64,000 nt of DNA, taken from Opitutus sp. ER46. Lineage in GTDB: Bacteria; Verrucomicrobiota; Verrucomicrobiia; Opitutales; Opitutaceae. The notes below the pieces were generated by a model. That model was not told where the DNA came from and did no database searches. It saw nothing but the letters and a program-made list of their open reading frames with translations. Made by a program: the position numbers and the translations under genes. Positions 2,092 through 40,525 of the stretch are shown piece after piece. The stretch is taken from NCBI RefSeq assembly GCF_003054705.1, contig NZ_QAYX01000024.1, positions 372,001-436,000 of the forward strand, given 5' to 3'. Every line of letters starts with the position of its first letter. Position 1 is the first letter of the stretch.

Positions 2092-2206
2092 GCGACCGCC
2101 CGCGCGGCGCGGTCGTCCGTTCCCTCTTTCCATTCCCCCCAATGCAGGGTCCGCCCATCCGGGGCGGCCTTGCTCCTGCCCGCGAACCGCCAACCCACCA
2201 CAAACC

Positions 2207-3547: not shown

Positions 3548-3592
3548 CGTTTGCCCGCGCCCGCTCCCGTTCTCAACCCATCCCTGTCTCCC

Positions 3593-12412: not shown

Positions 12413-12508
12413 TGCAATTATATCCGGCCGAGCATGGGGTAGTTGCGATAATGTCCAGATACTCGGGCATAATGTCCGGATTCTGCCGGGAATAATGTCC
12501 AGATACTC
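12413..12508 (+). repeat. 96-bp iteron element, copy 1
   Basis: The element begins with TGCAATTAT at 12413. After 35 bp it carries three direct copies of ATAATGTCC(A/G)GATACTC, at 12448, 12469 and 12492 (start-to-start spacing 21 and 23 bp). The middle copy has GATTCT. Two more copies of the whole element occur in the window with the same length and order. The remaining 12263-12616 spacer before the GH106 gene has no gene. No transposase is nearby. Confidence 0.85.
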
Positions 12509-20861: not shown

Positions 20862-21351
20862 GGCGCTGACGCGCAGCGCCTCTGCGCTGCGCTAATGCAG
20901 AATGGAGAATGCAGAATTTAGAATGACGGAAGCCGGCGCGGTCATGGGGCTGCGCCGGCGCGAAGCGGGCGCGTGGCAGCGCTCTTCTGGTTGTGATGGG
21001 GAAACACCTTGCCGTCCGCGTACCGACGCGCCCGCGGCTTCGGCGGGTGGGGCAATATTCCGGCCGGTTTTCCTCCGTGTGCTCCTCCGGCCTCCGTGCG
21101 CTCCGTGACGAGGCCTGGGCAGATTCTTTTCGAGGCTTGGTGAGTGCCTATGTGGAGTCTTGGCGCTCTTCCTCGGTGTCCTCCTCCGGGCTCCGTGCGC
21201 TCTGTGACGAGGATTGTCGCGATCTGCCACGTCGCGCACTCCGTGACGACGAACGAGAACGGCGCGCGGGCGAGTTGGTCTGCCGGTAGTAATAGAAATT
21301 CGAGAGGCCGGACGATTGACGGCGTTAAATGCACATGGTGTGCTCCGCGCC
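20862..21351. repeat. Intergenic repeat cluster after paralogue A
   Basis: No gene is visible. From left to right: a perfect 8-bp hairpin (GCGCAGCG/CGCTGCGC, 20871-20892) just after the stop; the AGAAT array (20893-20936); a GC-rich stretch; two copies of the CTCCGTG-type repeat (21068-21113 and 21166-21213), each ending in GTGACGAGG; and a partial third copy (21235-21259). About 380 bp of this region is repeated, with changes, after paralogue B. The last 100 bp should contain the promoter of paralogue B, but I see no convincing -35/-10 pair. Confidence 0.8.
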
Positions 21352-24300
21352 ATGTACGCACGTCGTTTCCTGCTACTGGCGGCATTCCTGTTTGGCAGCG
21401 CTCTATATGGGCAGTACGCCATCGATCCGACGGTGATTCCGTCGGACAACGGCACTGGTCCCGCCGCCACCGCTCCGTCGCTGCAGGGAATTTCCGGCGG
21501 CGGCACGGTCGAGAATGGTCAGCTCGTAAATCTGACGGTCCTGTTCTATGGCGACGGGGCGGGTCAGACGTATCAGTGGAAGAAGAACGGAGTAGAGCTG
21601 GCGGGTGCGACCGCGGTGTCCTACCGCATCGAGGCCGCGGTCGCGGCGGATGCCGGCACGTATGGCGTGACCGTGACGAACAGCGCCGGCGCCAGCGTGG
21701 CCACCACCAGTCTGGTGGTGAGGGCGCTCGCGGCCCCGACGATCTCTTCGCAGCCCTATTCCAATTCCGTTTACGTGGGGCAGAACGCTTCATTCTACAT
21801 CACCGCCAACGGCAGTTACCCGCGGACGTATCAGTGGCGCCGTGACGGAACGGCCATCGCGGGCGCGACGACCTCGGTGCTTTCCTTGACGGCAGTTACA
21901 CTCGCCGATGCCGCCGGATATTCGGTCGTGGTCTCCAACAGCCAAGGCTCTGCCACCAGCCAGACCGCCACGCTGACGGTCAATGCGGCGGTGGCTCCGG
22001 TCCTGTATCCCAGCTATCCTAACGACCAGACGGTGATGGTGGGAAACTCCGTTTCGTTCGGCTATAGCCTGAACGCCGGGTCTTCGCCATTTGCCATACA
22101 GTGGTACAAGAACGGCACGGCGATCCCCGGCGCGACCACCACCCCGTTGCTCATAAACAACATCGCCCTGGCTGATGCCGGCAATTACTCGGTCAAGGTG
22201 AGCAATGCCGCCGGCTCCGCCACCAGCCGCGAGGCGGTCCTCACCGTCAACCCCGCGACGCCAGTCACGATTTACACACAGCCGGAGGGGGTCACCGTGG
22301 CCGAGGGACAATCCTTTCAGCTCAGCGCTTACGCGTCCGGCAGTTCGCCGTTGACGTACCAGTGGGAGAAGGACGGTACTCCGATCAAGGACGCGAAGTA
22401 CTCCTATTACTCCGTGAGTGCCGCGGCGTTCGCGGACGCGGGTGCTTACCGCGTGGCGGTGACTAATCCGGCGGGTACGGTTTACAGCAGCGCCGCCACG
22501 GTCACGGTCAATGCGGCCCAGGCTCCCACCATCACGCGTCAGCCTGCGAGTGTGACGGTGCCGTATGCCGGTACGCTGGACTTGTCGGTGGGCGTTGCCG
22601 GCACCCCGCCACTTACCATCCAGTGGTCGAAAGACGGGGTGGTTATCCCCAACGCCGTCGATGCGAACTACCATCTCTATGAGGCAAAGCCGACGCACAG
22701 CGGCAGCTATACGGTCGTTGTAAAGAACCGGGTGGGGAGCATTACCAGCAACGCGGCGGTGGTGAAGGTATCGGAACCGGTGGCGCCGACCATCACCGAA
22801 CAACCCAAGCCGGCCCGTGTGGCCTTGGGCCAGAACGCCAGCTTTTCCGCATACTGGTCGTCGACCGGGGCTGGGCCGGTGAAGGTCCAGTGGCGTAAAA
22901 ACGGCGTTCCTTTGGCCGGGGCAACGTACAGCAGTTACTCCATCTCGGCGGTGAAGGAGTCTGACGCCGGTGTCTATTCGCTGCAGGCCACCGGCCCGGG
23001 CGGAACCGCGACCAGCAACGACGCCAGCCTGACCGTATTGCCGCCCGAACCGCCGAAGGTTTCGTACTGGCCCAGTGACACGAGTGTCTCGTTGGGGAAC
23101 TCGCTGTACCTCGGCGGCATGAGCGTCTACGGCTCTCCGCCCTTTACGTATCAGTGGTATCGAAACGGCGTGGCCCTTGCGGGAGCGACCTCGGCCTACT
23201 ATCGGGTCGACAACGTGACTGCCGCCGACCTTGGCACCTACGTGGTCAGGGTCACGGGCCCCGGCGGCATCCTGATCTCGCGCGAAATCCGGGTTGCGTT
23301 GAACGAGAGTAACACGACGCCATGGGTGAGCGTCGCCCAACTCGGCGAGGTCGTGTACTTCCTCGCGACCGAGCCCAGCCGAATCGAGCGTTACGATCTC
23401 GCTGCCGAAAAGTGGCTGCCGAGCGTGGTCCTAAGCGCCACACAGGTGCCCACGGCGTTCCTGCCCACCACGGAGGGGGTGTACGTTGCGTACGGTCGGA
23501 CATTGGCCCGGCGTTCACCTAGCCTGGTGGATGAGACTCCGGTTTTGAATGCCGGCGCCGACATTACGCAGCTCTATGCCCACGGGGACTTTCTCTATTA
23601 CCTGAGCGGCGCTCCGAATTACTCGCCGACGCTGCAGTCCGTGCGGCGGAGCAACCTACAGCCGGGACCCACGGTGGCGGCCATGCACAAGGTCGTGTTC
23701 TCCCAGTTGACCAACCGTGGGTACGGCCTGACCTCTAATGAGGCGAGCCGGCCGGCCGCCTTCACCATCTCCTCCGATGGGTCATTCACCGATGTCACGA
23801 CCGCGTCGTACGACGCCTACGACTCCTATAGTATTAAGCGGCTTCATCTCGTCGCGGGAGGGTCTGAGTTGGTCACCACCAATGGGTCGCGGTTCGCGAC
23901 CCCTTCCTTGGCGTACACCGGCTCCCTCGGCTTGCCGTTCCTGGATCTCGTATCGCGGAGCGACGGCGCGACCGTCGTGCTTCGAGCGGGAATGGCCCAC
24001 CTGCTCCGCGCGGGTGATTACGCGGAGACCGCACGAGCGCCCCTGTCCTTCGCCGCAACCCGCGCCTTTGGCCGCGGCACCGATGTATTCGTTTTCGGCG
24101 CGAATGCGGGCACATTGCCGTTTGCTGTGGCCAAACTGGCTCCGGCGGCGTTCGTCGCTCCCATCCCGCGCCCCGTCACGACCGGGCAGGGGGAACGGAT
24201 GTCGCTGGACGGAGTGGCGTTCGGCGATGGCGTTGTGCAGATCGTCAGCCGCACCAAGCAGGCCGTGGTGCGCTGGTCCACGTCCACGCGCAGCTACCTT

Positions 24301-26463
24301 AGCGCTGTGCCGCTGCGCGGGAGTCCGCGTCTGGTTACGTCCAATCCCAAGGGGACGCGCACGCTCCTGCAGTACGAAGACGGCACCCTTACCGCGGTGC
24401 CGCTGACTTTAAGCACGCCTACGGAGACGGCCGTGGCTGTCCACCCCTACTCCTTCGGGAGCGTAATGGATATTGAACGTCTCCTGGTTTGCTCGACGGG
24501 GTATAACCGGATGGGGTTCGACGCGAATGGGCAGTTCGTTTTCTCCACCAGCTATGAGAGCTCTGGTCTCGGGCTGTATTGGAACGCGGCGCTTCGGCGG
24601 CTCTACTCGGTCTCCCGCTACTCCTCCGGCTTCCAATACGAGGCGACGACGGCGGAAGGCATTCCCGGTTACGCCGTGGCGGGATCGACGGATGCGACGA
24701 TGCCGCTGTGCCCGAATGCCGAAGGTACTTTGATGGCGACGGGCAATGGGCGCGTGTTGAGCGCCGATCTGAAGCCGTTGGGCGCTCTGGCGAACAATAT
24801 CCTGGATGGAGCGTGGCTCGGGAATCGGCTCTACTCCCTGCGGGTGGGCACTGCCGGTACGGCGCAGGTGCAGCGCTGGTCGGAGGTGACGTATTTGCTG
24901 GACGGGACGGTGGATCTCCCCGGCACGCCGCTGCGGGTGTTCGCCATCTCAGACAAGCAACTGGTGGTGGTGACGTCGGTGCAGGGGTTCCCGTCGTTCA
25001 CCGTGCTCAATGCGGACCTGACGGTTTCCAATCTCGGCGCGGGCGCGGAGGCGTTTGCGGGCGTGTACTTGGCGAAGCTTGGGACGGGTGGCGCGGGGGG
25101 CGATCTGGCGCTGCTGGTACGGGCGAACGGCTCGGCGGTGCTGGTGGGCAATGTTCTCGGCACAAACGAGGGCGGGCTGCTCTGCGAGAACGTCACCCTT
25201 GGGCGCGACGGCACGTTTATCGCGAACGCACTTGATCCGCGCACGAGTGCGGGGCGCTTGGTCTCCGGCGTGATCAACGTCGACGGCACATTGAGTGGCT
25301 CGGTGTATCCGCTGGAGCTGACGTTCACGGGCAGCCGGCCAACGGGCAGCGGCGGGCTGGCGGGCTACTACGTGGTGCCGCCGCTCAACGGCGCGCTCGG
25401 CGGTTCGTACGGCATCGTGGCGCCGGACGGCCGCGCGGTCTTCTTCGCCTACTCGGGCAACACGTCCGCCGGCGGCCTGGGCACGTTTGCCAATGGTCAG
25501 ATGACGCTCACGCCGGCGAGCGGGGCGCAACTCACCGTCACGATCGATGGCGGCGGTTCGGTGCGCGTGATCGCGGACAAGACCGGGTTCTCCGGACAGA
25601 AGTTCGGCGGACTGCGCGACGGCGTGCGGCAGGCGATGCGGCTGTTCAACATCTCGAGCCGCGGGCGCACGGGCGACGGACTCAATACATTGGTGGCCGG
25701 CTTCGTGATCTCCGGCTCGGCGAATCGCAACGTGCTGATCCGGGCGGTCGGTCCGACGCTCTCGAAGCTGAGCGTGAAGGAGCCGATCGCGGATCCGAAG
25801 CTGAGCCTGTACCAGGGATCGACGCTGCTGAAGGAGGTCGACAACTGGAGCAGCGAGGCGAATGCCGCGGACATCGCGGCGGCGGCGAAGCGGACGCAGG
25901 CCTTTGAGCTGCCGAACCCGAGCAAGGACGCGGCGCTGTACGTGAACCTCCCGCCCGCAATCTACACGGTGATGGTGACGCCCGCGGCGGGCAGCCATGG
26001 CGTGGCGCTGGTGGAGGTGTACGACGGCGACGACCTGACGGGCACCGACCAGCCGCACCTGGCAAACATCTCCACGCGCGGTTGGGTGGGAACCGGCGAG
26101 GACGTGCTGGTGGCCGGCGTGGTCGTCTCCGGCAACACGCCGAAGCGGGTCCTGATCCGCGGCATCGGCCCCAGACTGACAGACCTTGGTGTGAACCAGG
26201 GCGCGCTGGCCGACCCGATCCTGACGTTGCGCGACTCCGAGAAGGTGATCGCGACGAATGACAACTGGGGCACGCAGACCTCCGGCCTCTCCGCCGATGA
26301 AATCACCGTGCGTTCCATGCCGACCGGCGCCTTCGGCCTGCTGCCCGGCAGCAAGGACGCCGTGCTCCTGCTCACGCTCGAGCCCGGCCTCTACACCGCG
26401 ATCCTCAGCGGCAAGGGCGACACCACCGGCACCGGCATGATCGAGGTGTACGAAGTGAACTAA
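21352..26463 (+). CDS. Giant secreted Ig-like repeat protein, paralogue B
   Basis: The 1,703-residue protein has the same architecture as its upstream neighbour: signal peptide (residues 1-21, MYARRFLLLAAFLFGSALYG), seven Ig-like domains, the middle beta-rich region and two C-terminal FNISSRGRTG-type domains. The ATG at 21352 is chosen because it starts the signal peptide; an in-frame TTG lies 36 bp upstream. The N-terminal Ig domains have diverged clearly from paralogue A (often only the TYQW and DAG.Y motifs are retained). From about 25,070 on, the DNA is nearly identical with no insertion or deletion relative to A (constant offset of 5,602 bp). This points to tandem duplication followed by recent homogenisation of the 3' part. 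Confidence 0.88.
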   Translation: MYARRFLLLAAFLFGSALYGQYAIDPTVIPSDNGTGPAATAPSLQGISGGGTVENGQLVNLTVLFYGDGAGQTYQWKKNGVELAGATAVSYRIEAAVAADAGTYGVTVTNSAGASVATTSLVVRALAAPTISSQPYSNSVYVGQNASFYITANGSYPRTYQWRRDGTAIAGATTSVLSLTAVTLADAAGYSVVVSNSQGSATSQTATLTVNAAVAPVLYPSYPNDQTVMVGNSVSFGYSLNAGSSPFAIQWYKNGTAIPGATTTPLLINNIALADAGNYSVKVSNAAGSATSREAVLTVNPATPVTIYTQPEGVTVAEGQSFQLSAYASGSSPLTYQWEKDGTPIKDAKYSYYSVSAAAFADAGAYRVAVTNPAGTVYSSAATVTVNAAQAPTITRQPASVTVPYAGTLDLSVGVAGTPPLTIQWSKDGVVIPNAVDANYHLYEAKPTHSGSYTVVVKNRVGSITSNAAVVKVSEPVAPTITEQPKPARVALGQNASFSAYWSSTGAGPVKVQWRKNGVPLAGATYSSYSISAVKESDAGVYSLQATGPGGTATSNDASLTVLPPEPPKVSYWPSDTSVSLGNSLYLGGMSVYGSPPFTYQWYRNGVALAGATSAYYRVDNVTAADLGTYVVRVTGPGGILISREIRVALNESNTTPWVSVAQLGEVVYFLATEPSRIERYDLAAEKWLPSVVLSATQVPTAFLPTTEGVYVAYGRTLARRSPSLVDETPVLNAGADITQLYAHGDFLYYLSGAPNYSPTLQSVRRSNLQPGPTVAAMHKVVFSQLTNRGYGLTSNEASRPAAFTISSDGSFTDVTTASYDAYDSYSIKRLHLVAGGSELVTTNGSRFATPSLAYTGSLGLPFLDLVSRSDGATVVLRAGMAHLLRAGDYAETARAPLSFAATRAFGRGTDVFVFGANAGTLPFAVAKLAPAAFVAPIPRPVTTGQGERMSLDGVAFGDGVVQIVSRTKQAVVRWSTSTRSYLSAVPLRGSPRLVTSNPKGTRTLLQYEDGTLTAVPLTLSTPTETAVAVHPYSFGSVMDIERLLVCSTGYNRMGFDANGQFVFSTSYESSGLGLYWNAALRRLYSVSRYSSGFQYEATTAEGIPGYAVAGSTDATMPLCPNAEGTLMATGNGRVLSADLKPLGALANNILDGAWLGNRLYSLRVGTAGTAQVQRWSEVTYLLDGTVDLPGTPLRVFAISDKQLVVVTSVQGFPSFTVLNADLTVSNLGAGAEAFAGVYLAKLGTGGAGGDLALLVRANGSAVLVGNVLGTNEGGLLCENVTLGRDGTFIANALDPRTSAGRLVSGVINVDGTLSGSVYPLELTFTGSRPTGSGGLAGYYVVPPLNGALGGSYGIVAPDGRAVFFAYSGNTSAGGLGTFANGQMTLTPASGAQLTVTIDGGGSVRVIADKTGFSGQKFGGLRDGVRQAMRLFNISSRGRTGDGLNTLVAGFVISGSANRNVLIRAVGPTLSKLSVKEPIADPKLSLYQGSTLLKEVDNWSSEANAADIAAAAKRTQAFELPNPSKDAALYVNLPPAIYTVMVTPAAGSHGVALVEVYDGDDLTGTDQPHLANISTRGWVGTGEDVLVAGVVVSGNTPKRVLIRGIGPRLTDLGVNQGALADPILTLRDSEKVIATNDNWGTQTSGLSADEITVRSMPTGAFGLLPGSKDAVLLLTLEPGLYTAILSGKGDTTGTGMIEVYEVN

Positions 26464-27100
26464 GGCGCTGACGCGCAGCGCCTCTGCGCTGCGCTAATGC
26501 AGAATGGAGAATGCAGAATTTAGAATGACGGAAGCCGGCGCGGTCATGGGGCTGCGCCGGCGCGTGGCGGCGTTCCTCGCATCGTAACTGGGCGCCACGT
26601 TGCCGTCCGCGTACCGACGCGCCCGCGGCTTCGGCGGGTGGGGCAATATTCCGGCCGGTTTTCCTCCGTGTCCTCATTCGGCCTCTGTGAGCTCCGTGAC
26701 GAGGATTGGGCAGATTCTTTTCGAGGCTTGTTGAGTGCCTAAGTGGAGTTCTGACGGTTTTCCTCGGTGTCATCCTCCGGCCTCTGTGCACTCCGTGACG
26801 AAGAACGAGAACGGCCTTCGGAGTGAAAGTGAAAGCGAGAGTGAAAGTGGGGAGCCGCGAACGACGGGTGACGGCGCTGGCGCCTTGTCGACCTGCAACC
26901 TTCCGACCTCCCAACTTGCAACCTGCCAACTTGCCCACTTGGAACTGCGGCGCCCGTCAGCGCGACCTGCAACTTGCCAACTTCCGACCTGCCAACGTGC
27001 AACTTTCGAACCTGCAACCGGGCTGCCGGCGGGCGCAGCCGCCACTTGCCAATGGCGGCGAGGGAAGCTCAGCTCGCGGTGAACTTTCTTCGTTCCGCCC
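26464..27100. repeat. Intergenic repeat cluster after paralogue B
   Basis: No gene is visible. It repeats the order seen after paralogue A: hairpin (26473-26494), AGAAT array (26495-26538), GC-rich stretch, and CTCCGTG-type repeats at 26659-26704 and 26758-26803. Then comes a GTGAAA array (26821-26852) and two arrays of 7-8 nt units of the type CCAACTTG/CAACCTG (26889-26942 and 26963-27020). A short pyrimidine-rich leader precedes the next gene. I see no cobalamin or SAM riboswitch pattern upstream of the methyltransferase-like gene. Confidence 0.8.
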
Positions 27101-28006
27101 ATGACTCTCCTGCACGACATCATCCGCACCCGCCGGCTCGTTTGTGACGGCGCGATGGGAACCCAACTCATGCTCGCCGGCCTGGAGCAGGGCGCCTGCG
27201 GTGAGGCCTGGAATCTCACCCATCCGGACCGCGTCCTCGCCATCCAGCGGCGCTACGTCGAGGCGGGCGCGGACTGCATCATCACGAATACCTTTGGCGC
27301 CAGCCGCATCGGCCTCGCCAAGTACGGGCTCGAAAAGGATCTCGCCGCCATCAACCGCGCCGGGGCGCGGCTCGCGCGTGAGGCTTTCGGCGGCAAGCCG
27401 GGCTTCGTCCTTGGCGACATCGGCCCGCTCGGCGTGCTCCTGGAACCCTACGGCGACCTCTCGCTCGTCGACGCTTCCGCCGCGCTGCTCGAACAGGCGA
27501 AGGAACTCGTGGCTGCCGGCGTCGACGCCGTCATCATCGAGACCCAGACCGCACTCGAGGAACTCGGGCTCGCCATCGACGCCGCGAAACAGGCCGGGGC
27601 CGCGTGCATCATCGGCTCGGTCGCCTTCGACCGCGCGCCGGATGGCAAATCCTTCCGCACGATGATGGGCGTGTCGCCCGAACAGGCCGTCGAGGTGATC
27701 GTTGCCCACGGCGCGCACATCGTGGCGCTGAACTGCGGCGCGGGGATGGACATGCCGGCGGCCGCCGAGGTCGCCGCCCTTTTCCGTCAGCATTGCGCGC
27801 TGCCGATCATGGTGCAGCCCAACGCCGGGCAGCCCGTCCTCGAGCAGGGACGCCTGGTCTATCGTCAGTTGCCCGCCGACATGGCCAAGGCCGTGCCCGC
27901 CGCGCTCGCCGCCGGCGCCGCCATCGTCGGCTCCTGCTGCGGCAGCACGCCCGACCACACGCGCGCCATCCGCGCCGCCGTCGACGCCCACGCCGCCGCG
28001 CGCTAG
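27101..28006 (+). CDS. Homocysteine S-methyltransferase-domain protein (MetH N-terminal-domain type)
   Basis: This 301-residue, single-domain protein has the fold of the zinc-dependent homocysteine methyltransferase barrel: CDGAMGTQLMLAGL near the start, CIITNTFGASRIGLAKYGL, and GDIGPLG. The zinc ligands are present as Cys212 (LNCGAG) and Cys279/Cys280 (GSCCGSTP). Full MetH is about 1,200 residues; here only the substrate-activating domain exists. Stand-alone proteins of this type transfer methyl groups to homocysteine or another thiol, sometimes with a separate corrinoid protein. It is followed at 243 bp by a UroD-family gene on the same strand, and a corrinoid reactivator lies nearby. The methyl donor is not known. 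Confidence 0.85.
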   Translation: MTLLHDIIRTRRLVCDGAMGTQLMLAGLEQGACGEAWNLTHPDRVLAIQRRYVEAGADCIITNTFGASRIGLAKYGLEKDLAAINRAGARLAREAFGGKPGFVLGDIGPLGVLLEPYGDLSLVDASAALLEQAKELVAAGVDAVIIETQTALEELGLAIDAAKQAGAACIIGSVAFDRAPDGKSFRTMMGVSPEQAVEVIVAHGAHIVALNCGAGMDMPAAAEVAALFRQHCALPIMVQPNAGQPVLEQGRLVYRQLPADMAKAVPAALAAGAAIVGSCCGSTPDHTRAIRAAVDAHAAAR

Positions 28007-28249: not shown

Positions 28250-29296
28250 ATGACTCCTTCCCAGTGGTCCACGTTCAAGCGCGCCGCCCGCGGCGAAAAG
28301 CTGCCCCAGATCCCGATGGCCATGATCATCGACAGCCCCTGGCTGCCGGGCTACGTGGGCGTCAGCCACGCCGAGTTTTTCCTCAACCCCGACACGTGGT
28401 TCCGCGCGCACCATCAGGTGCACCAGGAGTTCCCGGACATCACCTTCGTGCCCGGCTGGTGGCCGGAGTACGGCATGGCGGCCGAACCCTCCGCGCTCGG
28501 CGCCAAGATCAAGTTCTGGGAGAACAACACGCCGAGCGATCTGCCGCTGCTCTTCAACATCGAGGACGTCGACCGCCTCCCGCCGTACGAAGTCGAGGCC
28601 GACGCCTTCATGGGGCTCACGCTGCAGCGCATCCGGATGCAGAAGCAGCGCATCTGGGACACCGGCGAAATCCTCCCGATCGTCACCTCGCGCGGTCCGA
28701 TGTGCACCGCCGGGTTCGTGCGCGGCACGACCGAGTTCATGATGGATCTCGTCGAGAAGCCTGAGTACGCGCACAAGCTCCTCGATCTCTGCACGCGCCT
28801 GATCATCGACTGGCTCAAGGCGCAGGCCGCGGCCGTCGGCCGCGATGTCGAGGCCATCTTCCTGCTCGATGACCTCGTGGGTTTCGTCGGCGAGGAGCAC
28901 TACAAGGAGTTCTGCCATCCGTACCTGAAGCGGATCTGCGACGCGTTTCCGGCCGATTGGGTGAAGATTTATCACAACGACGCCAACATTGAGGAGTGCC
29001 TCGAACATCTGCCCGACGTCGGCTTCAACGTGCTCAACTGGGGCAAGCAGACCGACATCGCCGACGTGAAGGCGCGCATCGGTCGCCGCCTGTGTCTCAT
29101 GGGCAATGTGAATCCCCTGGAGGTCGGAGTGCGCGGCACGCCCGAGCAGGTGCGCGCGGCCACGCTCGATGTGCTCGAGAAGAGCGGCGGCGAAAACATC
29201 ATCCTCTCCGTCGGCGGTGGCACGAGCCCCGGCATGCCGCGCGCAAACATCGTCGCGATGCAGTCCGCGCTCGCGGAATTCAACTCGCGGCGGTGA
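28250..29296 (+). CDS. Uroporphyrinogen decarboxylase (UroD) family protein, possible corrinoid-linked methyltransferase
   Basis: The 348-residue protein has the UroD/MtaA-type barrel layout. The C-terminal half contains WVKIYHNDANIEECLEHLPD, then MGNVNPLEVGVRGTPEQVRAATLDVLE, then ENIILSVGGGTSPGMPRANIVAM, all typical of the non-haem branch of the family. Characterised methyltransferases of this branch (MtaA, MtbA) bind zinc through His-X-Cys and a later Cys; here His242 is kept but the following position is Asn and the later Cys is Gly, so that activity is uncertain. It is not a haem-pathway HemE. Neighbours with methyltransferase and corrinoid-reactivation functions make a C1-transfer role the best guess. 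The stop codon lies in the loop of a small hairpin. Confidence 0.75.
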   Translation: MTPSQWSTFKRAARGEKLPQIPMAMIIDSPWLPGYVGVSHAEFFLNPDTWFRAHHQVHQEFPDITFVPGWWPEYGMAAEPSALGAKIKFWENNTPSDLPLLFNIEDVDRLPPYEVEADAFMGLTLQRIRMQKQRIWDTGEILPIVTSRGPMCTAGFVRGTTEFMMDLVEKPEYAHKLLDLCTRLIIDWLKAQAAAVGRDVEAIFLLDDLVGFVGEEHYKEFCHPYLKRICDAFPADWVKIYHNDANIEECLEHLPDVGFNVLNWGKQTDIADVKARIGRRLCLMGNVNPLEVGVRGTPEQVRAATLDVLEKSGGENIILSVGGGTSPGMPRANIVAMQSALAEFNSRR

Positions 29297-29431
29297 CGCC
29301 GCGAAGTGAGCTCGGGGCGGTCGGGCGCGGCGCCCCGAAGTGAAAGTGAAAGTGAGAGTGAGAGTGAAAGTGTGGTCGGCGCACTCGGGCTGACACCCGG
29401 GAGTGAACGCGGGGCTGACTCCCCGAGGTGA
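29287..29431 (+). repeat. Four small hairpin units ending in GAAGTGA, with an embedded GTGAAA array
   Basis: Four units share the form G/C-stem, short loop, stem, then GA(A/G)GTGA: 29287-29310 (GCGGCGGTGACGCCGC, with the UroD stop codon in the loop), 29323-29343, 29384-29406 and 29410-29431 (GGGGCTGACTCCCC). Between the second and third is a hexamer array (GTGAAA/GTGAGA, 29338-29374). The stems differ in sequence but are self-complementary in each unit, suggesting that structure is being kept. Confidence 0.65.
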
Positions 29432-29738
29432 GAGAGAAGGTTGAAGTCGGTGGGAGGTGGGCGCGCGAATGGGGACGGCGTTCGTTAGGATCGCGTGCGG
29501 TCCGCGCCCTTTTCGCGCCCCGATGGGGCGCGGTTTTTCCATCAGGCTGCGTTCGCCTGCTTGCGCGCGAGAGCCCCTTGGGGGCGCGTGAATTTGGCGG
29601 CTGGTCTGCAGCCGGGGCGCGCGCATTCGGTCACCGTGCCTTTGGCACTCCCGGTGTCATTCGCACTGCGGGGCGAATCTTCTCACGTGTCCACCCGCAA
29701 AACCGCGGCCAAACCGACGAGTAGAAGGTGTCGATGGC
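29432..29738. other. Gene-free GC-rich spacer
   Basis: I see no supported gene here. A self-complementary GCGCCCCGATGGGGCGC followed by a short T-run (about 29515-29538) looks like a terminator for the upstream UroD-family transcript, read on the forward strand. The rest shows short GC hairpins only. Confidence 0.5.
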
Positions 29739-29833
29739 TGCAATTATAATTCACGTTCTAGCAACGTCTAACGGGATAATGTCCAGATACTCCGGAATAA
29801 TGTCCGGATACTTTTTCATAATGTCCGGATCTT
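29739..29833 (+). repeat. 95-bp iteron element, copy 2
   Basis: TGCAATTAT at 29739 is followed after 37 bp by three direct repeats of ATAATGTCC(A/G)GATACT at 29776, 29797 and 29818 (both spacings exactly 21 bp). A perfect 9-bp hairpin, GTTTTCGCC/GGCGAAAAC (29836-29856), directly follows. A similar GTTTTCGC/GCGAAAAC hairpin precedes copy 3 of the element. The local base composition is AT-richer than the surroundings. Confidence 0.85.
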
Positions 29834-29886
29834 TTGTTTTCGCCGGCGGCGAAAACAACAGGAGGGCGCGAACGAATTTTGTAGGA

Positions 29887-30327
29887 TTTTCTCGGCGTCG
29901 CGTCGGTTTTTTGTGCGCGCCGTGACGAAGATTGGGGCGGATTCGAATCGGGAATTCGTGAGTTCCGGTCTTCGTCACGGAGTTCACCGAGTTCGGAGGA
30001 GGATACCGAGGACCTGGCCGCGATCACAAGAACGCCGCCACGTACTCCCTGCGAGTGGCTCTCCACTTTCACTTTCACTCTCACCCTCACTCCGAAGGCC
30101 ATTTTTCGTCACGGAGCGCACGGAGTTCGGAGGAGGACACGGAGGAGAACTGACGGAATCCCGCACGAGGCACTCACGAAGTCCTGAACGAACTCTGCGC
30201 GATCTTCGTCACGAAATTCTGGCGGTTTTCCTCCGTGCCCTCCTCCGAACTCGGTGAACTCCGTGACGAAGATCGAGGCGGCTGTTCTTCAGGGAGAAAG
30301 AGGAAGAGTAAGAGGAAGAGTTGTGCG
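29887..30327. repeat. CTCCGTG-type repeats in both orientations with GTGAAA array
   Basis: No gene is visible. A divergent forward copy lies at 29887-29931. Reverse-complement copies lie at 29969-30012 and 30102-30149, and a forward copy at 30236-30272. The last two form an almost perfect inverted repeat of about 45 bp with an 86-nt loop. Between them and the earlier copy is a reverse-complement GTGAAA array (30060-30094) joined to GGCCTTCGGAGTGA, the same composite order as at 26803-26852. A GAGGAA array (30294-30320) lies just after the end of the next (reverse-strand) gene. Confidence 0.8.
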
Positions 30328-31986
30328 CTAGGCGGTGGCGGAGACTGGCTGGAACAGGCAACCTTCGACGAAAATGTCGAAAAACTGCGGGTGCGTTTCG
30401 AGGCGGCGATGCGAGACGCGCTTCACGATTTCCTCGAGTTCCGCGCGGCGCGTGCGCGAAAGCAGCGCGCGCATCGCGCCTTCGATCGACGCATTTCCAA
30501 TCTGCCGAATGCGCGCATCGGGAATGTCGGGAATGAGTCCGATGCGGCGCGCGGAATCGAGATTCAGATGCCGGCCAAAGCCGCCGGCCACGTAGAAGAT
30601 TTCGATGTCCGCAAACGAAACACCGTAGTCGCCCGCCACAATGCGCAGGCCCGCGACGTTCGCGCCCTTGGCCTGCGCGAGCGCATTGATGTCGGCCTCG
30701 CTGAACGTGACGGGCCGCTCGCCCGCGTTGCTCACGACGATCTGCCGCGCGCCGTCGGTGTAGCGACCGATGGGATTAATGCGGTCCGTGCGCTGCAATT
30801 CGCTCAGCAAATCGACGAGCCCCGAGCCGCACAGGCCGTCGGGCGGAGCGTTGTCGATCACGCTGATCGCGAAGGTGCCGTCCTCATTCATGCGCACTTC
30901 CTCGATCGCGCCGGGCAGCGCGGGCATGCCGAACGCGATCTGGCCGCCCTCGAAGGCGGGACCGGCGGGGCAGGACGCCGCGAAGATCTTGTGCCGGTTG
31001 CCAAGCAGCAGCTCGGTGTTGGTCCCGATGTCCATCATCGCCACCACGCGCTCCTCGTGGGCGAGATCGATCGCGAGCAGGCACGCCGCCGCATCGGCGC
31101 CGACGTGGCCGCTGATGATCGGCAAACCGTAAACGCGGGCGCGCGGATGAATCGGCAGCCGCAGGTGGTCGGCGGTGACGCTGACACTGGTTGAGGCGCG
31201 CCGGCCCGCCGCGACCTCGATCTCCGTGATCGATTGGTACGGGCTCTGGCCGATCGGGTGGACGGACAACCCGAAGAACAAGTCGCGCATCGTCGAGTTG
31301 CCGGCGATGACGACCTCGTAGATCGACTGCGGATCGACGGGAAACTCCTGGATCGTGCGGCTGAGATAACCGAGCAGCGCGCGCTGGAGGGCGTGGGTGC
31401 GGTCGACCGAGTCGAAATGGATGCGCGCCATCACATCGGAGCCGCCGAAGCGCTGCGGGTTCTCGAAGGAGGCGTCGGCGACGACGTCGCCGGTCTCGAG
31501 ATTCACGAGCCGGAGCACGACGGTCGTGGTGCCAATGTCGATCGCGAGTCCGTGGAGCGGGCCGGCGCGGCGGTCGATCTCGACGCCCTCGAGGAGCACG
31601 CGGTCGCCCTCGCGCGTGACCGCCGGGTCGAGCGCGGTGCTCGCGCCGGTGGTCGGCAGGTCGGCGGCGTCGCGCTCGATGCGCATCGTGCCGCGCCGCA
31701 TCGTGTGGCAGTGGATCTCGCCTTCCTCGGCCGCGACGCGCGCGCAGCACGCGAGCCGGTAGGACTCGGCGAGATGGGCCTCGTCCGCGGTGGGCGGCGT
31801 GAGTCGCTCCATGCCCGCGGTGACTTCGACGACGCACTCCTTGCAGCGGCCCTGGCGGGCGCAGGAACTCGGCACGTGGACGCCGGCGCCCTCGGCGAGT
31901 TCGAACAGCGAGCGGCCGACCGGGGCGGGGCAGGACCGGTGGTCGATGTGCAGTTGGGCGCTCATGCGGGCCGCCGACACTGGCAT
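30328..31986 (-). CDS. RACo-type reductive activator of corrinoid proteins (2Fe-2S ferredoxin plus ASKHA/DUF4445 domains)
   Basis: The 552-residue protein starts with a ferredoxin domain with cluster ligands Cys42, Cys48, Cys51 and Cys80 or Cys81 (CARQGRCKEC, then ACC). A linker follows, then an actin-like ATPase domain with LAIDIGTTTVVLRLVNLETG, MMDIGTNTELLLGN, and CGSGLVDLLSEL, ending with FYVAGGFGRHLN. RACo/RamA proteins use ATP and an electron to return inactive Co(II) corrinoid proteins to Co(I), so the cell must have a corrinoid methyltransferase. It lies 57 bp after uxuA on the same strand, which suggests co-transcription with uronate catabolism. A start at 31965 is also possible; 31986 fits the C-rich leader pattern. 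Confidence 0.88.
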   Translation of the reverse strand: MPVSAARMSAQLHIDHRSCPAPVGRSLFELAEGAGVHVPSSCARQGRCKECVVEVTAGMERLTPPTADEAHLAESYRLACCARVAAEEGEIHCHTMRRGTMRIERDAADLPTTGASTALDPAVTREGDRVLLEGVEIDRRAGPLHGLAIDIGTTTVVLRLVNLETGDVVADASFENPQRFGGSDVMARIHFDSVDRTHALQRALLGYLSRTIQEFPVDPQSIYEVVIAGNSTMRDLFFGLSVHPIGQSPYQSITEIEVAAGRRASTSVSVTADHLRLPIHPRARVYGLPIISGHVGADAAACLLAIDLAHEERVVAMMDIGTNTELLLGNRHKIFAASCPAGPAFEGGQIAFGMPALPGAIEEVRMNEDGTFAISVIDNAPPDGLCGSGLVDLLSELQRTDRINPIGRYTDGARQIVVSNAGERPVTFSEADINALAQAKGANVAGLRIVAGDYGVSFADIEIFYVAGGFGRHLNLDSARRIGLIPDIPDARIRQIGNASIEGAMRALLSRTRRAELEEIVKRVSHRRLETHPQFFDIFVEGCLFQPVSATA

Positions 31987-32043
31987 GGCGGCGGGGTGGG
32001 TGTCCCGCGGATACTGCGCCGCGGGGCGCCGTTATCAGGCGGA

Positions 32044-33114
32044 TTAATCCGCGCCCGTGAACTTCATCGCGGCCTTCATGTAGCCCATCGCGTAAGCCAT
32101 GCCGGCGTGCCAGGGGGCGCCGCAGGACATCTGCGGGGTATGGTCGGGGATGAGGACGCCCTCGAAGCCGTTGCGCTTCAGGATGTGGAGCACGCGCAGC
32201 ATATCGACGTCACCGTCGTCGATGAACGTCTCCTTGTAGGTGGGGACCTTGCCGCGGACGTTGCGGAAGTGGACGTAGCCGAGCCGGTGCTGGCGGCTGT
32301 ACTGGTCGACGGCCTCGTAGACGTCGCCCTCGGTCATCTCGGCGAGGGAGCCGATGCAGAACTCGAGCTGGTTCGCGGGGCTGGGGTTGAGGTCGATGAG
32401 CTTTTGGTAATACCGCGGCTGGTACACGAGCCGCGGTTGCTGGCGGATGGTCGGCAGCGGCGGGTCGTCGGGGTGGGCGGCGAGTCGGACGCCGGCGGCT
32501 TCGGCGACGGGAAGGACCTCGTCGAGGAAACGCTGGAGCCGGTCCCAGAGCTGCTCGGGCGTGGCGGACGGGACGTTGCCGGCGGGGGCGTTGGGATCGA
32601 CGACCATGTTCCACGCCATGCCGTTGGGCATGGGGGCGTCGTAGGGCCCCTCCATGCCGACGGAGGGCGCCTCGCCACGCGCGTAGTTGCCGCGGGTGCG
32701 GCCAGCGACGCCAGCGACGCTGAAATTGTAGCCCATGATCGGGATGCCGGCCTCGCCGAGCCGGCGGACGAGGGTCTTTACATTCTCGATGTGCTGCGGA
32801 CGGCGGGGGCCGTCGAGGAGCACGTCGTGCCAGTGGGCGGGGTCGAAGTTCTCGATAGCCTCGAGCTTGAGCCCGGCGGCCTCGACCTCGCGGCGGAGGG
32901 CGAGGAGTTCGGCGGTGGTCCAGAGCTGGTGGGGGTCGCCGGCGAGGCCCCAGCCGAAGTCGGTGCCGGTGGGCTGGTCGTCGCGGGAGGCGTGGGCGCC
33001 GCCGCGGAAGTAGTCGACGAGGTGGGCAACGATGTGGGTCGCGCCGGCCTGCCGCGCGAAGAGGAAGTTCTCGCGCGTGAGCATGTGCCGGTAGAGGCCG
33101 AGTCCGAGTTTCAT
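32044..33114 (-). CDS. uxuA: Mannonate dehydratase
   Basis: This 356-residue cytosolic enzyme converts D-mannonate to 2-keto-3-deoxygluconate in the glucuronate pathway. All family signatures are present in order: HPDDPPLP (metal site), NQLEFCIGSLAEM, YVHFRNVRG, TFIDDGDVDMLRVL and LIPDHTPQM. The length matches the Bacillus form (about 360). It is the first gene of an apparent two-gene operon with the corrinoid reactivator. Its substrate would come from (4-O-methyl-)glucuronate released by the GH67 and GH115 enzymes encoded on either side. Other pathway genes (uxaC, uxuB, kdgK) are not in the window. Confidence 0.96.
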   Translation of the reverse strand: MKLGLGLYRHMLTRENFLFARQAGATHIVAHLVDYFRGGAHASRDDQPTGTDFGWGLAGDPHQLWTTAELLALRREVEAAGLKLEAIENFDPAHWHDVLLDGPRRPQHIENVKTLVRRLGEAGIPIMGYNFSVAGVAGRTRGNYARGEAPSVGMEGPYDAPMPNGMAWNMVVDPNAPAGNVPSATPEQLWDRLQRFLDEVLPVAEAAGVRLAAHPDDPPLPTIRQQPRLVYQPRYYQKLIDLNPSPANQLEFCIGSLAEMTEGDVYEAVDQYSRQHRLGYVHFRNVRGKVPTYKETFIDDGDVDMLRVLHILKRNGFEGVLIPDHTPQMSCGAPWHAGMAYAMGYMKAAMKFTGAD

Positions 33115-37145: not shown

Positions 37146-40100
37146 CTAAGGCGCGCGGAGACTTTCGACGGGGCCGAGGTAGGTGGGCGGCAGGGGCGTG
37201 CGATGCAGGACGACCCGCTGCAGGACGAGGCCGGGATCGACCATCCAGATTCGGATCGTGTGCTCGCCGGGAGCGGCGAGCGTGTGCCGGGTGGTCGAGC
37301 GGCGGGCGTTGTCGGCCACCACCTTTTCCCATTCCCGGTTGTGGTGCTCGGCGCGGAAGTTGGCGGCCACGAGCGTGACGATCTGCGGCTTCGCGTCGTC
37401 GATCGCGACCGCGTAGCGCATCGGGCGGTCGGGCATGAAATTCAGCGTGGGGCTCCACGTCAGCGTGAGCTCCGCGGGGCCGCCAGCGAAGACGTGCGCA
37501 CGGTATTCAAGCAGTGCTGCGTCCTGGCCGGGCGTGGCCGGCGGCTGGTTGGCCGGCGCCTCGGCGCGCAGCCCGGAAAGCGTGTGACCGTAGTCGGCGA
37601 TGCGCGTCCAACGGCCGTTGGCCGCCGGCCGGTGGCGCGCGGCGTGTTCCGCCTCGATCGCGACCACGCCGTTGTTCTCGACGAACGCGCCGGCGACGGG
37701 CGTCGTGGCGGGCCGGAACGCGCTGACGCCGACCGTGAGGCGGACGGCGCCGCAGCGGAATTCGATGCTGCCCTCGGGGGCGCCCGGCGGGACGGACGGC
37801 CAGTCGAGCGAGACCCACAGACGCTGGTCGCCGGTGACCCGGCCTTCGCGGGCGCTGAGCCGGATCCACGGCGCGCTGGGCGTGGCAGTGAAGGTGAACG
37901 GCGCGGCGCCGCGGTTGAACAATTCGATGTAGTAGCGCTGCCGGTTGACGGCGTCGAACGTCGGCAGCCGGGGCGCGGTGAGAACGGGCGTGGCGGTGGT
38001 GGCGGCGAGCTGCGGCCAGGCGTCCTCGGAGCCCTCGACGGCGAGCGCGGGCGCGGCGGCGGCGGGGACCGGGTGGGTGACGAGCGGGACGGCGTCGAGC
38101 GAGTTGCGCGGCGGATCGCGCCACGTGGTGTAGCCGAGGTGCGCCTGGTCCATGAAATGGGCCCAGCGGCCGCCGGCGTACTCGCCGTTGTAATACGCCA
38201 TCAGATCGAGGTCGGCCTGGAAGAGGCGGCGCGTCTCGGCGGCAAAGTCGTTGGCGCTGGCGCGGCCCTGGCGGGCGTAGAGGGCGTTGCGGCCGGCGGC
38301 GACGTAGAGCTCGTTGACGAGGGCGGACGCCTCGGTGGGGAACTGCACGAGCTGGTAGAACGCGTCGCGCTTGGCGGCCGGCAGCGTGGCGGCGAGCGCG
38401 CGGGCGCGGGCGGCGAGGGCGTTGAAGTCGGCGACGACGCGCTCGGCCTCGCGCGCGTGCACGAGGCTGTAGGTCGAGGGGGCGAGGAGCTCGGGCTTTC
38501 GCCGGCCGTTGAACTTGGCGTAGCCCGCGACGAGGGCGGCGGCTTCCGGGGCGGCGGCGGGGCCGAACTCGCGGGTGGCCCAGGCGCGGAGGAACTCATC
38601 GAGGTTGCCGCCGTGCCAGCGGGCGGGGTTCCAGGCGAGGTCGATGAAGAACTCGACCGGCACCTCGTAGCCCTTGAAGTGGCCGGCGTTGACGATCCAG
38701 ATCCGGTCGGCGCCGTACTGGTGGGCGAGCGCCATCTGGTCCCAGATCTTCGGCAGCGGGTTGGTGTTGAGCCACTGGTAGCTGCGCGGGCCGCCGTGGT
38801 AGTCGAAATGGTAATACACGCCCGCGCCGCCCGGGCGCTCGCGCTCCGCCGCGGTGGGCAGCCGCCGCACGTTGCCCCAGTTGTCCTCGGCCCAGAGCAG
38901 CGTGACGTCGTCGGGTACGCGCATCCCCGCCTCGTAGTAGTCCTGCACCTCCTTGTAGAGGCACCACAGCTGCGGGACGCGGGCGACGTCGGGCGTGAGT
39001 TCCTGGCGGAGGATGTCGCGCTGGCGGGCGACGATATGCTCGAGCAGGTCGCGGTGGGCGTCGGGGCCGCCGGCGGCCATCTCGGTGTCGTTGGCGCCGC
39101 GCAGGCCCATGGTGATGATGCTTTCGAATGCGCGGTTGCGGCGGATGCCCTCGCGCCAGAAATCCTCGAGCAGCGCGGGGTGCTGGGCGTAGTTCCAGTG
39201 GCCGATCGTGGCCTTGTGGCGGCGGTCCCACTCCATTTGCGAGCGGAGCATTGGCTCCTGGTGCGAGGTGCCCATCACGATGCCGTACTCGTCGGCGAGG
39301 GCGGCGTTGGCGGAATCGTCCTCGTTGAACGCGTTGTCCCACATCGCCGGCCAGAGATAGTTGCCGCGCAGGCGGAGCAGGACCTCGAAGATCGTGGCGT
39401 AGAACTCGCGGCCGTAGTTGGCGATGCCCGGCGGGACGGGCGGCTTGTCGCGCACGGGCGCGTCGCCGTATTTCGCGCGGACCCAGTTGGTGAGCGCCGG
39501 CGCCTCGTCGTTGAGGAAGATGCCGCGGTAGCGAACGGCCGGCGGCCCCTGCACAAAACGCGGCGGCGCCACGTACAACGCATCGTGGCGGTCGGGCGTG
39601 ACGTCCGCCCACCAGTACCACGGGGAGACGCCGATCTGGGCGGACAAGTCGTAGGTGCCGTAGATCGCGCCCCGCTTGTCGCTGCCGACGATGACGAGCG
39701 CGCGGGCGACGCCGGGGAACGGCTGCTCGATCACCTGGCGGACCCAGGATTCCCAGCGCCCGCGGATGGGAGAAACGTCCAGCTTCCCGGCGCGCACGAG
39801 CTCGTCGATCCAGGCGGCGCGTCCGAGTGTGCCCACGAGCACGACGTCGCCGGAGGCGCTGGTGGGGGCGCCGACGGTCAGCGTGGGCGTGCGGGTGGTG
39901 ACGCGGCGGATATCGGCCTGGAGATCGCGGGCGACCCGGATTACGCCCGGCCAGTCCTCGGCGGCGACGACGATCCCGGCCGTGGCGTCGGTGGTGGCCA
40001 GGGCGAAGGCGCCTTCGGCCGGGGCAAAGCTGACGTACGCCGGCTCGCCGACCACGGCCCGCAGCGGCGCCGCGATCACGAGCGTTGCCAGCAGGACGCC

Positions 40101-40220
40101 GGCGAGTTGCAGGCCCGCGGTCCACCGACGCGAAAAGGCGGCTCGCGGTGTGCGCAGCGGGCGGGCAACGATGGCCGCGCGGCGGCAGGCAGCGAGAAAG
40201 CGACGGGTGATGCGGGACAT
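37146..40220 (-). CDS. GH115 family xylan alpha-(4-O-methyl)-glucuronidase, secreted
   Basis: The 1,024-residue protein has a long basic N-region and then a signal segment (about residues 36-54). The GH115 core includes AIYGTYDLSAQIGVSPWYWWADVTP, YRGIFLNDEAPALTNW, LLRLRGNYLWPAMWDNAFNEDD, MGTSHQEPMLRSQMEW and LLWAEDNWGNVRRLP, and the C-terminal beta-domain ends with the usual sandwich. GH115 enzymes remove (methyl-)glucuronate from internal as well as terminal xylose residues, so this complements the GH67 enzyme at 3593. It is transcribed towards the SAM methyltransferase gene, ending 49 bp from it. The GH3 gene lies upstream on the same strand with a 305-bp gap that contains an iteron element. 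Confidence 0.94.
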   Translation of the reverse strand: MSRITRRFLAACRRAAIVARPLRTPRAAFSRRWTAGLQLAGVLLATLVIAAPLRAVVGEPAYVSFAPAEGAFALATTDATAGIVVAAEDWPGVIRVARDLQADIRRVTTRTPTLTVGAPTSASGDVVLVGTLGRAAWIDELVRAGKLDVSPIRGRWESWVRQVIEQPFPGVARALVIVGSDKRGAIYGTYDLSAQIGVSPWYWWADVTPDRHDALYVAPPRFVQGPPAVRYRGIFLNDEAPALTNWVRAKYGDAPVRDKPPVPPGIANYGREFYATIFEVLLRLRGNYLWPAMWDNAFNEDDSANAALADEYGIVMGTSHQEPMLRSQMEWDRRHKATIGHWNYAQHPALLEDFWREGIRRNRAFESIITMGLRGANDTEMAAGGPDAHRDLLEHIVARQRDILRQELTPDVARVPQLWCLYKEVQDYYEAGMRVPDDVTLLWAEDNWGNVRRLPTAAERERPGGAGVYYHFDYHGGPRSYQWLNTNPLPKIWDQMALAHQYGADRIWIVNAGHFKGYEVPVEFFIDLAWNPARWHGGNLDEFLRAWATREFGPAAAPEAAALVAGYAKFNGRRKPELLAPSTYSLVHAREAERVVADFNALAARARALAATLPAAKRDAFYQLVQFPTEASALVNELYVAAGRNALYARQGRASANDFAAETRRLFQADLDLMAYYNGEYAGGRWAHFMDQAHLGYTTWRDPPRNSLDAVPLVTHPVPAAAAPALAVEGSEDAWPQLAATTATPVLTAPRLPTFDAVNRQRYYIELFNRGAAPFTFTATPSAPWIRLSAREGRVTGDQRLWVSLDWPSVPPGAPEGSIEFRCGAVRLTVGVSAFRPATTPVAGAFVENNGVVAIEAEHAARHRPAANGRWTRIADYGHTLSGLRAEAPANQPPATPGQDAALLEYRAHVFAGGPAELTLTWSPTLNFMPDRPMRYAVAIDDAKPQIVTLVAANFRAEHHNREWEKVVADNARRSTTRHTLAAPGEHTIRIWMVDPGLVLQRVVLHRTPLPPTYLGPVESLRAP

Positions 40221-40525
40221 CGGGATTCTGGGCTGACCGCGCGAACACGGGCCGGCCGGGTGGACACGATGAAACCCGTGGGAGGGAAGGCGAAGCCCGC
40301 GCTCCTCAGACTTCTGAGCGGTTTTCGCTCACGCGAAAACCGAAGGAGCAGGAGGGGACGATGGGTGCAATTATTACTATATAATGGGCAATTGGTTAGG
40401 TGATAATGTCCAGATACTCGGATAATGTCCGGATACTCGCGGGAATAATGTCCAGATACTCCGGACGCAGCGGAGGCGGTCAGGGGCCGGGCTGAAGAGG
40501 GGGCGGTCGCCCTTGCGACGCCTGG
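40221..40525. other. Spacer between GH3 and GH115 genes, with a hairpin
   Basis: It contains no gene. A perfect hairpin GTTTTCGC/GCGAAAAC (40321-40340) precedes an AGGAGCAGGAGGGG stretch and the third copy of the iteron element. The hairpin resembles the one next to element copy 2. Confidence 0.6.
40366..40461 (+). repeat. 96-bp iteron element, copy 3
   Basis: TGCAATTAT at 40366 is followed after 37 bp by direct repeats of ATAATGTCC(A/G)GATACTC at 40403, 40422 and 40445 (spacing 19 and 23 bp). As in the other copies the outer repeats have A and the middle one G at the tenth position (in copy 2 of the element the third also has G). Here it lies upstream of the reverse-strand GH115 gene and after the end of GH3. 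Confidence 0.85.

Follow-up and report, generated by a model that had tools for sequence, protein, structure and literature searches.

What happens to the methyl group when bacteria digest xylan with methylated glucuronate side groups? Xylans of hardwoods and grasses commonly bear 4-O-methylglucuronate side groups, and the question is raised by four neighboring genes in a 64-kb stretch of the Opitutus sp. ER46 genome (the window; G000:C24:372001-436000, in a genome of 5.71 Mb, 25 contigs, and completeness of 100). These genes encode a RACo-type reductive activator of corrinoid proteins (RACo), a UroD-superfamily protein (UroD), a homocysteine S-methyltransferase (HcyMT), and a UxuA-family mannonate dehydratase (UxuA). 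An initial annotation had placed RACo in one operon with UxuA and had read the four genes as a possible demethylation system for 4-O-methylglucuronate. That reading was right in direction and is partly supported, its core being well supported by comparative genomics and its substrate predicted. We consider it likely that the set encodes a corrinoid-dependent three-component O-demethylase for 4-O-methylglucuronate, or for an early derivative of it, which is built into glucuronoxylan loci and delivers the methyl group to homocysteine or folate. This conclusion draws on gene identities, a conserved cluster, linkage to alpha-glucuronidases, exchange of the substrate methyltransferase (MT-I), and protein folds; from these we infer the substrate, the demethylated intermediate (the free uronate or a later one), and the methyl acceptor.

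Components of the gene set in the window and in relatives

Pfam and coordinate data placed the four genes where the initial annotation had them. The predicted MT-I, UroD, is assigned to its superfamily by Pfam, PDB profile, and fold, its predicted structure (pLDDT, 87) matching UroD and MtaA (best Foldseek E value, 1.2e-16), and it shares 66 to 80% identity with its 22 aligned orthologs (alignment A3) from six phyla by record titles. In comparison with MtaA (4ay7), the histidine of the His-X-Cys motif is kept (H242), its cysteine is replaced by D244, and the distal cysteine is replaced by glycine. MtaA uses both of these cysteines to bind zinc; membership in the MtaA/MtbA-type thiol methyltransferases was thus rejected. 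HemE was ruled out as well: the position aligned (with 4wsh) to the HemE catalytic aspartate, which we take to be that of the FSD motif (D86 in human), is Gly75, invariant in A3, and G000 has a separate, far better HemE match on contig C25 (E = 5.4e-116). The best NCBIfam match of UroD, TIGR01463 (MtaA/CmuA), stays under the cut-off (103.7 versus 235.4 bits), and a PDB search with the N-terminal part alone returned nothing beyond chance matches. The initial annotation had correctly noted the missing His-X-Cys motif and raised it as an objection. This objection falls because, according to the available part of PMC13222342, the UroD superfamily includes O-demethylases (MtvB, OdmB, VdmB, and MtoB) and CdmB, which belongs to the same superfamily, is active without zinc. 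UroD is distant in sequence from CdmB, the only MT-I of this group that was compared.

HcyMT has C212, C279, and C280, presumably placed like the three zinc cysteines (NCG and CC) of zinc-dependent homocysteine methyltransferases. RACo, with domains PF00111, PF17651, and PF14574, matches PDB entry 3zyy (E = 3.7e-70) and has C42, C48, C51, and C80/81, which we take to be the N-terminal [2Fe-2S] cysteine motif. UxuA matches 3ban (E = 1.6e-32) and 1tz9, scores under the NCBIfam cut-offs, and conserves H214, C253, H282, and D324, presumably the metal-binding residues of the barrel.

One scan of species genomes with the window RACo as the only query yielded 39 loci, which by record titles belong to Verrucomicrobia, Acidobacteria, Planctomycetes groups, Gemmatimonadetes, KSB1, Ignavibacteria, and one Bacteroidetes. 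They carry a protein termed X1 (31 loci), HcyMT (30, some partial), a 110-amino-acid protein termed X2 (28), a cluster-type corrinoid protein (CorP; 26), UroD at >50% identity (22), MTHFR (10), and a pterin methyltransferase (8); many contigs end early, and these counts are therefore lower bounds. As controls, 17 loci centered on different Verrucomicrobiota RACo subfamilies were compared; none of them carries X1, X2, a cluster-type CorP, HcyMT, or UroD of this type. The initial annotation had held the lack of a corrinoid protein against its own proposal; in relatives, a cognate CorP lies inside the cluster in 26 of the 39 loci. Of the 22 loci holding both UroD and RACo (UroD+ loci), 20 have the two genes in the same orientation; besides the window and four genome regions, a tree of 23 UroD proteins covers 18 of these loci, with L044, L049, L052, and L061 outside A3. 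In G125, which has the whole cluster, the order is LacI-UxuA-RACo-X1-X2-UroD-CorP-(2.6 kb unassigned)-MTHFR-pterin methyltransferase-amidohydrolase-HcyMT-SDR, with GH115 on the LacI side. By sequence, the window genes resemble a widespread B12-dependent gene set in rearranged and reduced form.

The cluster-type CorP of relatives has 1y80, presumably a Moorella protein, as its top PDB match (E = 1.5e-76), and DLHDIG (DXHXXG motif) is invariant in all 15 rows of its alignment (A2). In one locus (L029:5609-6586), the corrinoid protein frame runs on into a PF13769 (Virulence_fact) domain. X1 was found in relatives only (alignment A1 covers 18 of the 31 proteins) and has no Pfam, NCBIfam, or PHROGs match. 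Profile (E = 5.2e-6) and Foldseek (E = 2.3e-10; TM score to the target, 0.82) comparisons both match its N-terminal half to 1j6r, the MetH activation domain, and on this basis that half is a predicted stand-alone MetH-type reactivation domain. The C-terminal half, which carries several conserved cysteines (L029:2755-4020), gave weak Foldseek matches only, with no recognized fold.

Two loci that are marine by their titles (L050 and L051; RACo identity, 54%) contain the core CorP-RACo-X1-HcyMT-X2 together with MTTB (positions 2648 to 4165 in L050, where a DAO/GCVT-type protein lies nearby) and no UroD, and their genomes have neither GH67 nor GH115. MTTB standing in the place of UroD indicates that UroD is an exchangeable, substrate-specific methyltransferase; the L050/L051 set is a possible quaternary-amine system of marine Verrucomicrobiota. 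The core also occurs in L065, another distant locus, whose stretch contains no MTTB and no UroD.

Linkage of the gene set to glucuronoxylan loci

As the initial annotation had stated, GH67 and GH115 alpha-glucuronidases lie in the window (Table 1). Together with GH8, GH43, and the MFS_2 transporter, and with GH3 and GH31 genes also detected by Pfam, they identify the window as a glucuronoxylan locus. The suggested check for co-occurrence showed that this RACo subfamily co-occurs with the two enzymes: GH67 or GH115 is present in 11 of the 22 UroD+ loci (13 if UxuA is counted), and none of the three occurs in the 17 controls. Fisher tests gave 7e-4 and 8e-5, values that serve as guides only because the loci are related; the total flank was 234 kb for the controls versus 377 kb, and four controls lie on contigs of <9 kb. 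These counts use window references alone, and references added from relatives gave the same set. The arrangements vary and include X2-SDR-GH67 (L046, L048, and L052), X2-GH67 (L049), HcyMT-GH67 (L054), GH115-GH67 (L034), GH115 upstream of UxuA-RACo (L030, L038, and L060), and GH67 adjoining RACo (L036 and L040). Three of the 17 RACo loci without UroD have GH67 (L036, L040, and L054).

In whole genomes, matches above the family cut-off were found for GH67 in 26 and for GH115 in 27 of the 39 RACo genomes. With GH115 counted only at E < 1e-70, a threshold picked after viewing the list, at least one of the two enzymes is present in 32 of the 39, including 20 of the 22 UroD+ genomes, and in none of the four distant RACo genomes (L050, L051, L053, and L065; RACo identity, 54 to 56%). 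This RACo subfamily occurs at ≥45% identity in 10 of 387 Verrucomicrobiota genomes, one of them the window genome. The six with RACo at ≥62% identity (again including the window genome) all have GH67 and strong GH115, compared with GH67 at E < 1e-80 in 23 of the 381 others (Fisher test, 1e-7); all six belong to one family (f1) and are thus not six independent events.

UxuA at ≥75% identity was found in seven of the 39 loci, all with UroD, and lies near RACo in G125, G300, G117, and G297. Three genomes of the same family as the window genome (G114, G195, and G207) have loci with GH115, UxuA, SDR, GH43, and GH67 but without the module, here meaning the demethylation genes around RACo. They have no RACo match at E ≤ 1e-60, and their B12-binding domains are of the MetH type only. 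That these relatives keep GH115-UxuA-SDR makes the module an add-on and places UxuA outside it, in the general uronate route; UxuA as a module component was thereby ruled out. In Opitutaceae, UxuA lies on one side of the module and SDR on the other; the RACo-free loci L111 and L112 have these two genes next to each other. Of the demethylation idea in the initial annotation, the glucuronoxylan-linked corrinoid set is well supported in relatives, with two amendments: UxuA is not in the module, and the window copy is without X1 and a cognate CorP.

The reduced copy in the window genome and its rate of evolution

UxuA and RACo are paired on the minus strand with a gap of 57 bp (31987-32043), as the initial annotation had it. 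HcyMT and UroD lie on the opposite strand, so the four genes are not one operon in G000. The two pairs converge on a spacer that corresponds to the part of the cluster usually occupied by X1, X2, and the corrinoid protein in relatives, and a search of the spacer for remnants of these three found none. Intergenic dispersed repeats of at least two kinds occur in the spacer and at 12447-12507, 21057-21210, 26648-26856, and 40337-40465. By Pfam model search, the window RACo is the only RACo_C_ter match of the G000 genome, and the window UxuA is the sole UxuA gene found, both genome matches falling in it. Elsewhere in the window, two neighboring proteins of 1,709 and 1,715 amino acids (15732-20861 and 21316-26463) have several immunoglobulin-type domains each.

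Table 1. Positions of the genes discussed and of the convergent spacer within the window
Feature	Position	Strand	Evidence
MFS_2 sugar transporter of xylan locus	586-2091	+	PF13347, E = 2e-87
GH8, xylan-locus enzyme	1826-3547	+	PF01270, E = 4.7e-20
GH67 alpha-glucuronidase	3551-5869	+	PF07488, E = 1.2e-143
GH43 xylosidase-type enzyme	5939-7633	+	PF04616, E = 1.3e-96
HcyMT, homocysteine S-methyltransferase, predicted methyl acceptor enzyme	27101-28006	+	PF02574, E = 6.3e-59
UroD-superfamily member, predicted MT-I (O-demethylating substrate methyltransferase)	28250-29296	+	PF01208, E = 6.5e-45
Spacer (1,031 bp) between convergent UroD and RACo genes	29297-30327		Many dispersed repeats
RACo-type reductive activator of corrinoid proteins	30328-31986	-	PF14574, E = 3.9e-70; PF17651; Fer2
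UxuA-family mannonate dehydratase	32044-33114	-	PF03786, E = 3.3e-51
GH115 alpha-glucuronidase	37146-40220	-	PF15979, E = 1.7e-142

In agreement with the initial annotation, no corrinoid (B12-binding) protein was found inside the window. The genome search that it had called for gave nine B12-binding matches, two of which are MtbC-like small proteins, on contigs C22 and C23. Neither is cognate: both share ~45% identity with the first row of A2, compared with 59 to 88% for the cluster-type CorPs of relatives. The C22 protein lies in an operon (L018:10355-14053) with a DUF1638 gene and two UroD-like genes, one of which was named by eye and has no Pfam or NCBIfam match; pairs of CorP and UroD_b akin to this operon also occur in G125, G297, G117, and G169. 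The C23 protein adjoins an MtaB gene (L139:8428-10448; PF12176, E = 6e-157), and by sequence the two are a probable methanol methyltransferase system that would rely on the window RACo. X1, present in 25 of 30 genomes searched, has no match in the G000 genome, which also has no cluster-type CorP; for X2, a search of the window and the stretches examined, not of the whole genome, gave no match. Without X1 and a cognate CorP in G000, the window set would need a corrinoid protein in trans, from C22 or C23, to work.

Two further genomes, EW11 (L038; G001 = G169) and L047 (G016), have UroD, RACo, and HcyMT with only a small CorP of the non-cluster type; X1 is shortened in EW11 and missing from L047. 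The three longest of the 17 branches in the RACo tree are those of L047 (0.69), the window (0.54), and EW11 (0.53), against a median of 0.19, and in the UroD tree these branches rank third, first, and fourth of 23, respectively. Relative-rate counts compared each genome with a CorP-bearing relative, L098 in the case of the window, under several outgroups. The window RACo had 74 changes versus 32 in L098 with outgroup L061 (P = 5.5e-5), and counts with the other outgroups ranged from 61 versus 30 to 101 versus 24; P values lay between 2e-12 and 0.0015 with all five outgroups. RACo was also faster in L047 (65 versus 44 to 82 versus 36; two of three tests with P < 1e-4, the lowest being 3e-5, and one with P = 0.055) and, less firmly, in EW11 (54 versus 37 to 69 versus 34; P = 7e-4, 0.044, and 0.093).

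UroD evolved faster in the window (31 to 37 versus 15 to 19 changes; P = 0.005 to 0.12 by outgroup), was weakly accelerated in L047 (P = 0.03 to 0.42), and showed acceleration in none of three tests in EW11. HcyMT rates in the window were even in most comparisons (P < 0.06 in 4 of 15 tests); the protein was not accelerated in EW11 (0 of 5), and accelerated in L047 (3 of 3). No acceleration was detected for UxuA in the window or EW11, and the L047 locus has no UxuA. The window UroD is 80% identical to that of L098, with a nonsynonymous rate (dN) of 0.138 and a synonymous rate (dS) of 0.706, indicating that purifying selection persists; the L029-L098 comparison pair gave a dN of 0.06 and a dS of 1.16, and these dS values are large and rough. 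We read the RACo acceleration as adaptation to other corrinoid proteins; relaxed constraint may alternatively account for the acceleration in the reduced window set.

Alternative explanations and the proposed demethylation route

Several observations weigh against a 4-O-methylglucuronate demethylase, beginning with the missing X1 and cognate CorP in G000. None of UroD, HcyMT, RACo, and UxuA meets an NCBIfam cut-off. Half of the UroD+ loci (11 of 22) are without GH67 and GH115 in the stretch examined, both enzymes are absent from the L047 and L057 genomes, and four of the ten Verrucomicrobiota RACo genomes (those with RACo at 45 to 57% identity) have no GH67 and absent or weak GH115. Conversely, five f1 genomes (G114, G142, G166, G195, and G207) have GH67 without this RACo subfamily, so the module is dispensable for GH67 use. 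The substrate itself is something we infer from sequence, and the characterized UroD-superfamily O-demethylases act on methoxyaromatics according to the available part of PMC13222342. Methoxyaromatics occur in the same plant material. If the module demethylated methoxylated aromatics, such as ferulate- or lignin-type units found with xylan, in the manner of MtvB, OdmB, VdmB, and MtoB, it would be merely co-located with the xylan enzymes, and the similarity of CorP to 1y80 fits this explanation too. We consider it improbable, as the genes that keep recurring with the module, across phyla and in varied orders, are those for alpha-glucuronidases and uronate use, and as the Opitutaceae module lies between UxuA and SDR. 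Pfam analysis of 10 proteins, picked from many, that flank six loci without GH67 or GH115 (L039, L041, L043, L047, L055, and L063) found no common alternative substrate; another set of proteins, taken from distant loci, yielded the MTTB of L050. Methanol released from pectin or from uronate methyl esters, with UroD as an MtaA-like second methyltransferase, is a very improbable donor: the MtaB gene beside the C23 CorP and the TIGR01463 match of UroD speak for it, but UroD is without both zinc cysteines of MtaA, and the G000 MtaB gave tblastn matches in none of the 39 RACo loci and in one of the 17 controls. It is hardly credible that RACo and UxuA, though on one strand and 57 bp apart in a gene-dense genome, are chance neighbors without functional meaning; the recurrence of UxuA in seven of the 39 loci, each with UroD, refutes this explanation, and the gene neighborhood as a whole recurs across phyla.

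A different matter is whether the set has changed its role in the window genome, with RACo serving as a general activator of the C22 and C23 corrinoid proteins and with UroD and HcyMT left over or re-partnered. Such a change would account for a single RACo beside two non-cognate CorPs, one adjoining MtaB, in a genome without X1 and the cognate CorP, and for RACo acceleration in the window with all five outgroups as well as in L047 and, less firmly, EW11, both also without a cognate CorP. On the other hand, UroD is intact, close to its L098 ortholog, and under purifying selection; HcyMT is mostly not accelerated; and GH67, GH115, and UxuA are retained beside the set. We therefore regard a change of role in G000 as possible but doubtful.

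Under the demethylase assignment, GH67 and GH115 would free 4-O-methyl-D-glucuronate. UroD, as MT-I, would hold the uronate while Co(I) of the MtbC-like CorP attacks the 4-O-methyl carbon to give methyl-Co(III)-CorP, from which HcyMT would pass the methyl group to homocysteine. Where the genes are present, the pterin methyltransferase would move it to tetrahydrofolate and MTHFR would oxidize it. RACo, driven by ATP, and X1 would restore corrinoid oxidized to Co(II), and in G000 the window set would use the corrinoid protein from C22 or C23. The demethylated uronate would then proceed through UxuA and the uronate pathway. The C4 hydroxyl freed by methyl removal is needed for later aldolase cleavage; thus, demethylation must precede the 2-keto-3-deoxygluconate aldolase.

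The set resembles the corrinoid O-demethylases of acetogens and methanogens (MtvB/OdmB/VdmB/MtoB) in its UroD-superfamily MT-I, its RACo-type activator, and, in relatives' clusters, a small CorP with 1y80 as the closest PDB entry and, in part of them, a pterin methyltransferase. It differs from them in its genomic partners (GH67, GH115, and UxuA), in including HcyMT and the stand-alone MetH activation domain X1, and in hosts that include Acidobacteriota, Planctomycetota, and Gemmatimonadota. As in MetH, there are a homocysteine methyltransferase, a B12 domain, and a reactivation domain, but here as separate proteins; unlike MetH, the core has no methyltetrahydrofolate domain, takes the methyl group from an extra MT-I, has RACo, and includes in X1 an additional C-terminal domain. 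UroD shares the fold and the TIGR01463 match with MtaA, MtbA, and CmuA but not the zinc cysteines, and the MTTB loci share the core but neither UroD nor the alpha-glucuronidases. In the Geobacillus HUS locus (aguA, kdgKA-uxaC-uxuAB), GH67 and UxuA likewise handle the glucuronate side chain; unlike in the window set, no methyl-removing genes are mentioned in the available part of PMC4194401.

That same text calls the GH67 product D-glucuronic acid and sends it to the uronate pathway, and the available part of PMC4765114 names methylglucuronate as a product and has no word starting with "demethyl"; the fate of the methyl group is passed over in the available text of both. According to the available part of PMC11264602, none of its metagenome-assembled genomes had annotated mtv or mto genes. 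Among the matches listed in a search of open-license PMC papers by titles and abstract beginnings, with subscription papers and preprints outside its scope, no paper described corrinoid demethylation of a methylated sugar. Altogether, we lean toward a B12-dependent O-demethylase for a carbohydrate that is found in plant-degrading bacteria of at least six phyla as an add-on to glucuronoxylan loci, turns a methoxyl group into methionine or one-carbon units, employs X1 beside RACo, and has an interchangeable core that with MTTB serves quaternary amines. The assignment gives a role to X1, a recurrent protein outside Pfam and NCBIfam models, and the candidate gene set makes the fate of the methyl group directly testable in cultivable relatives. 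If true, it would broaden the substrate range of corrinoid O-demethylases to a carbohydrate, extend these systems to Acidobacteriota, Planctomycetota, and Gemmatimonadota, tie xylan decay to the one-carbon and B12 economy, and supply a missing step in the bacterial digestion of wood and straw.

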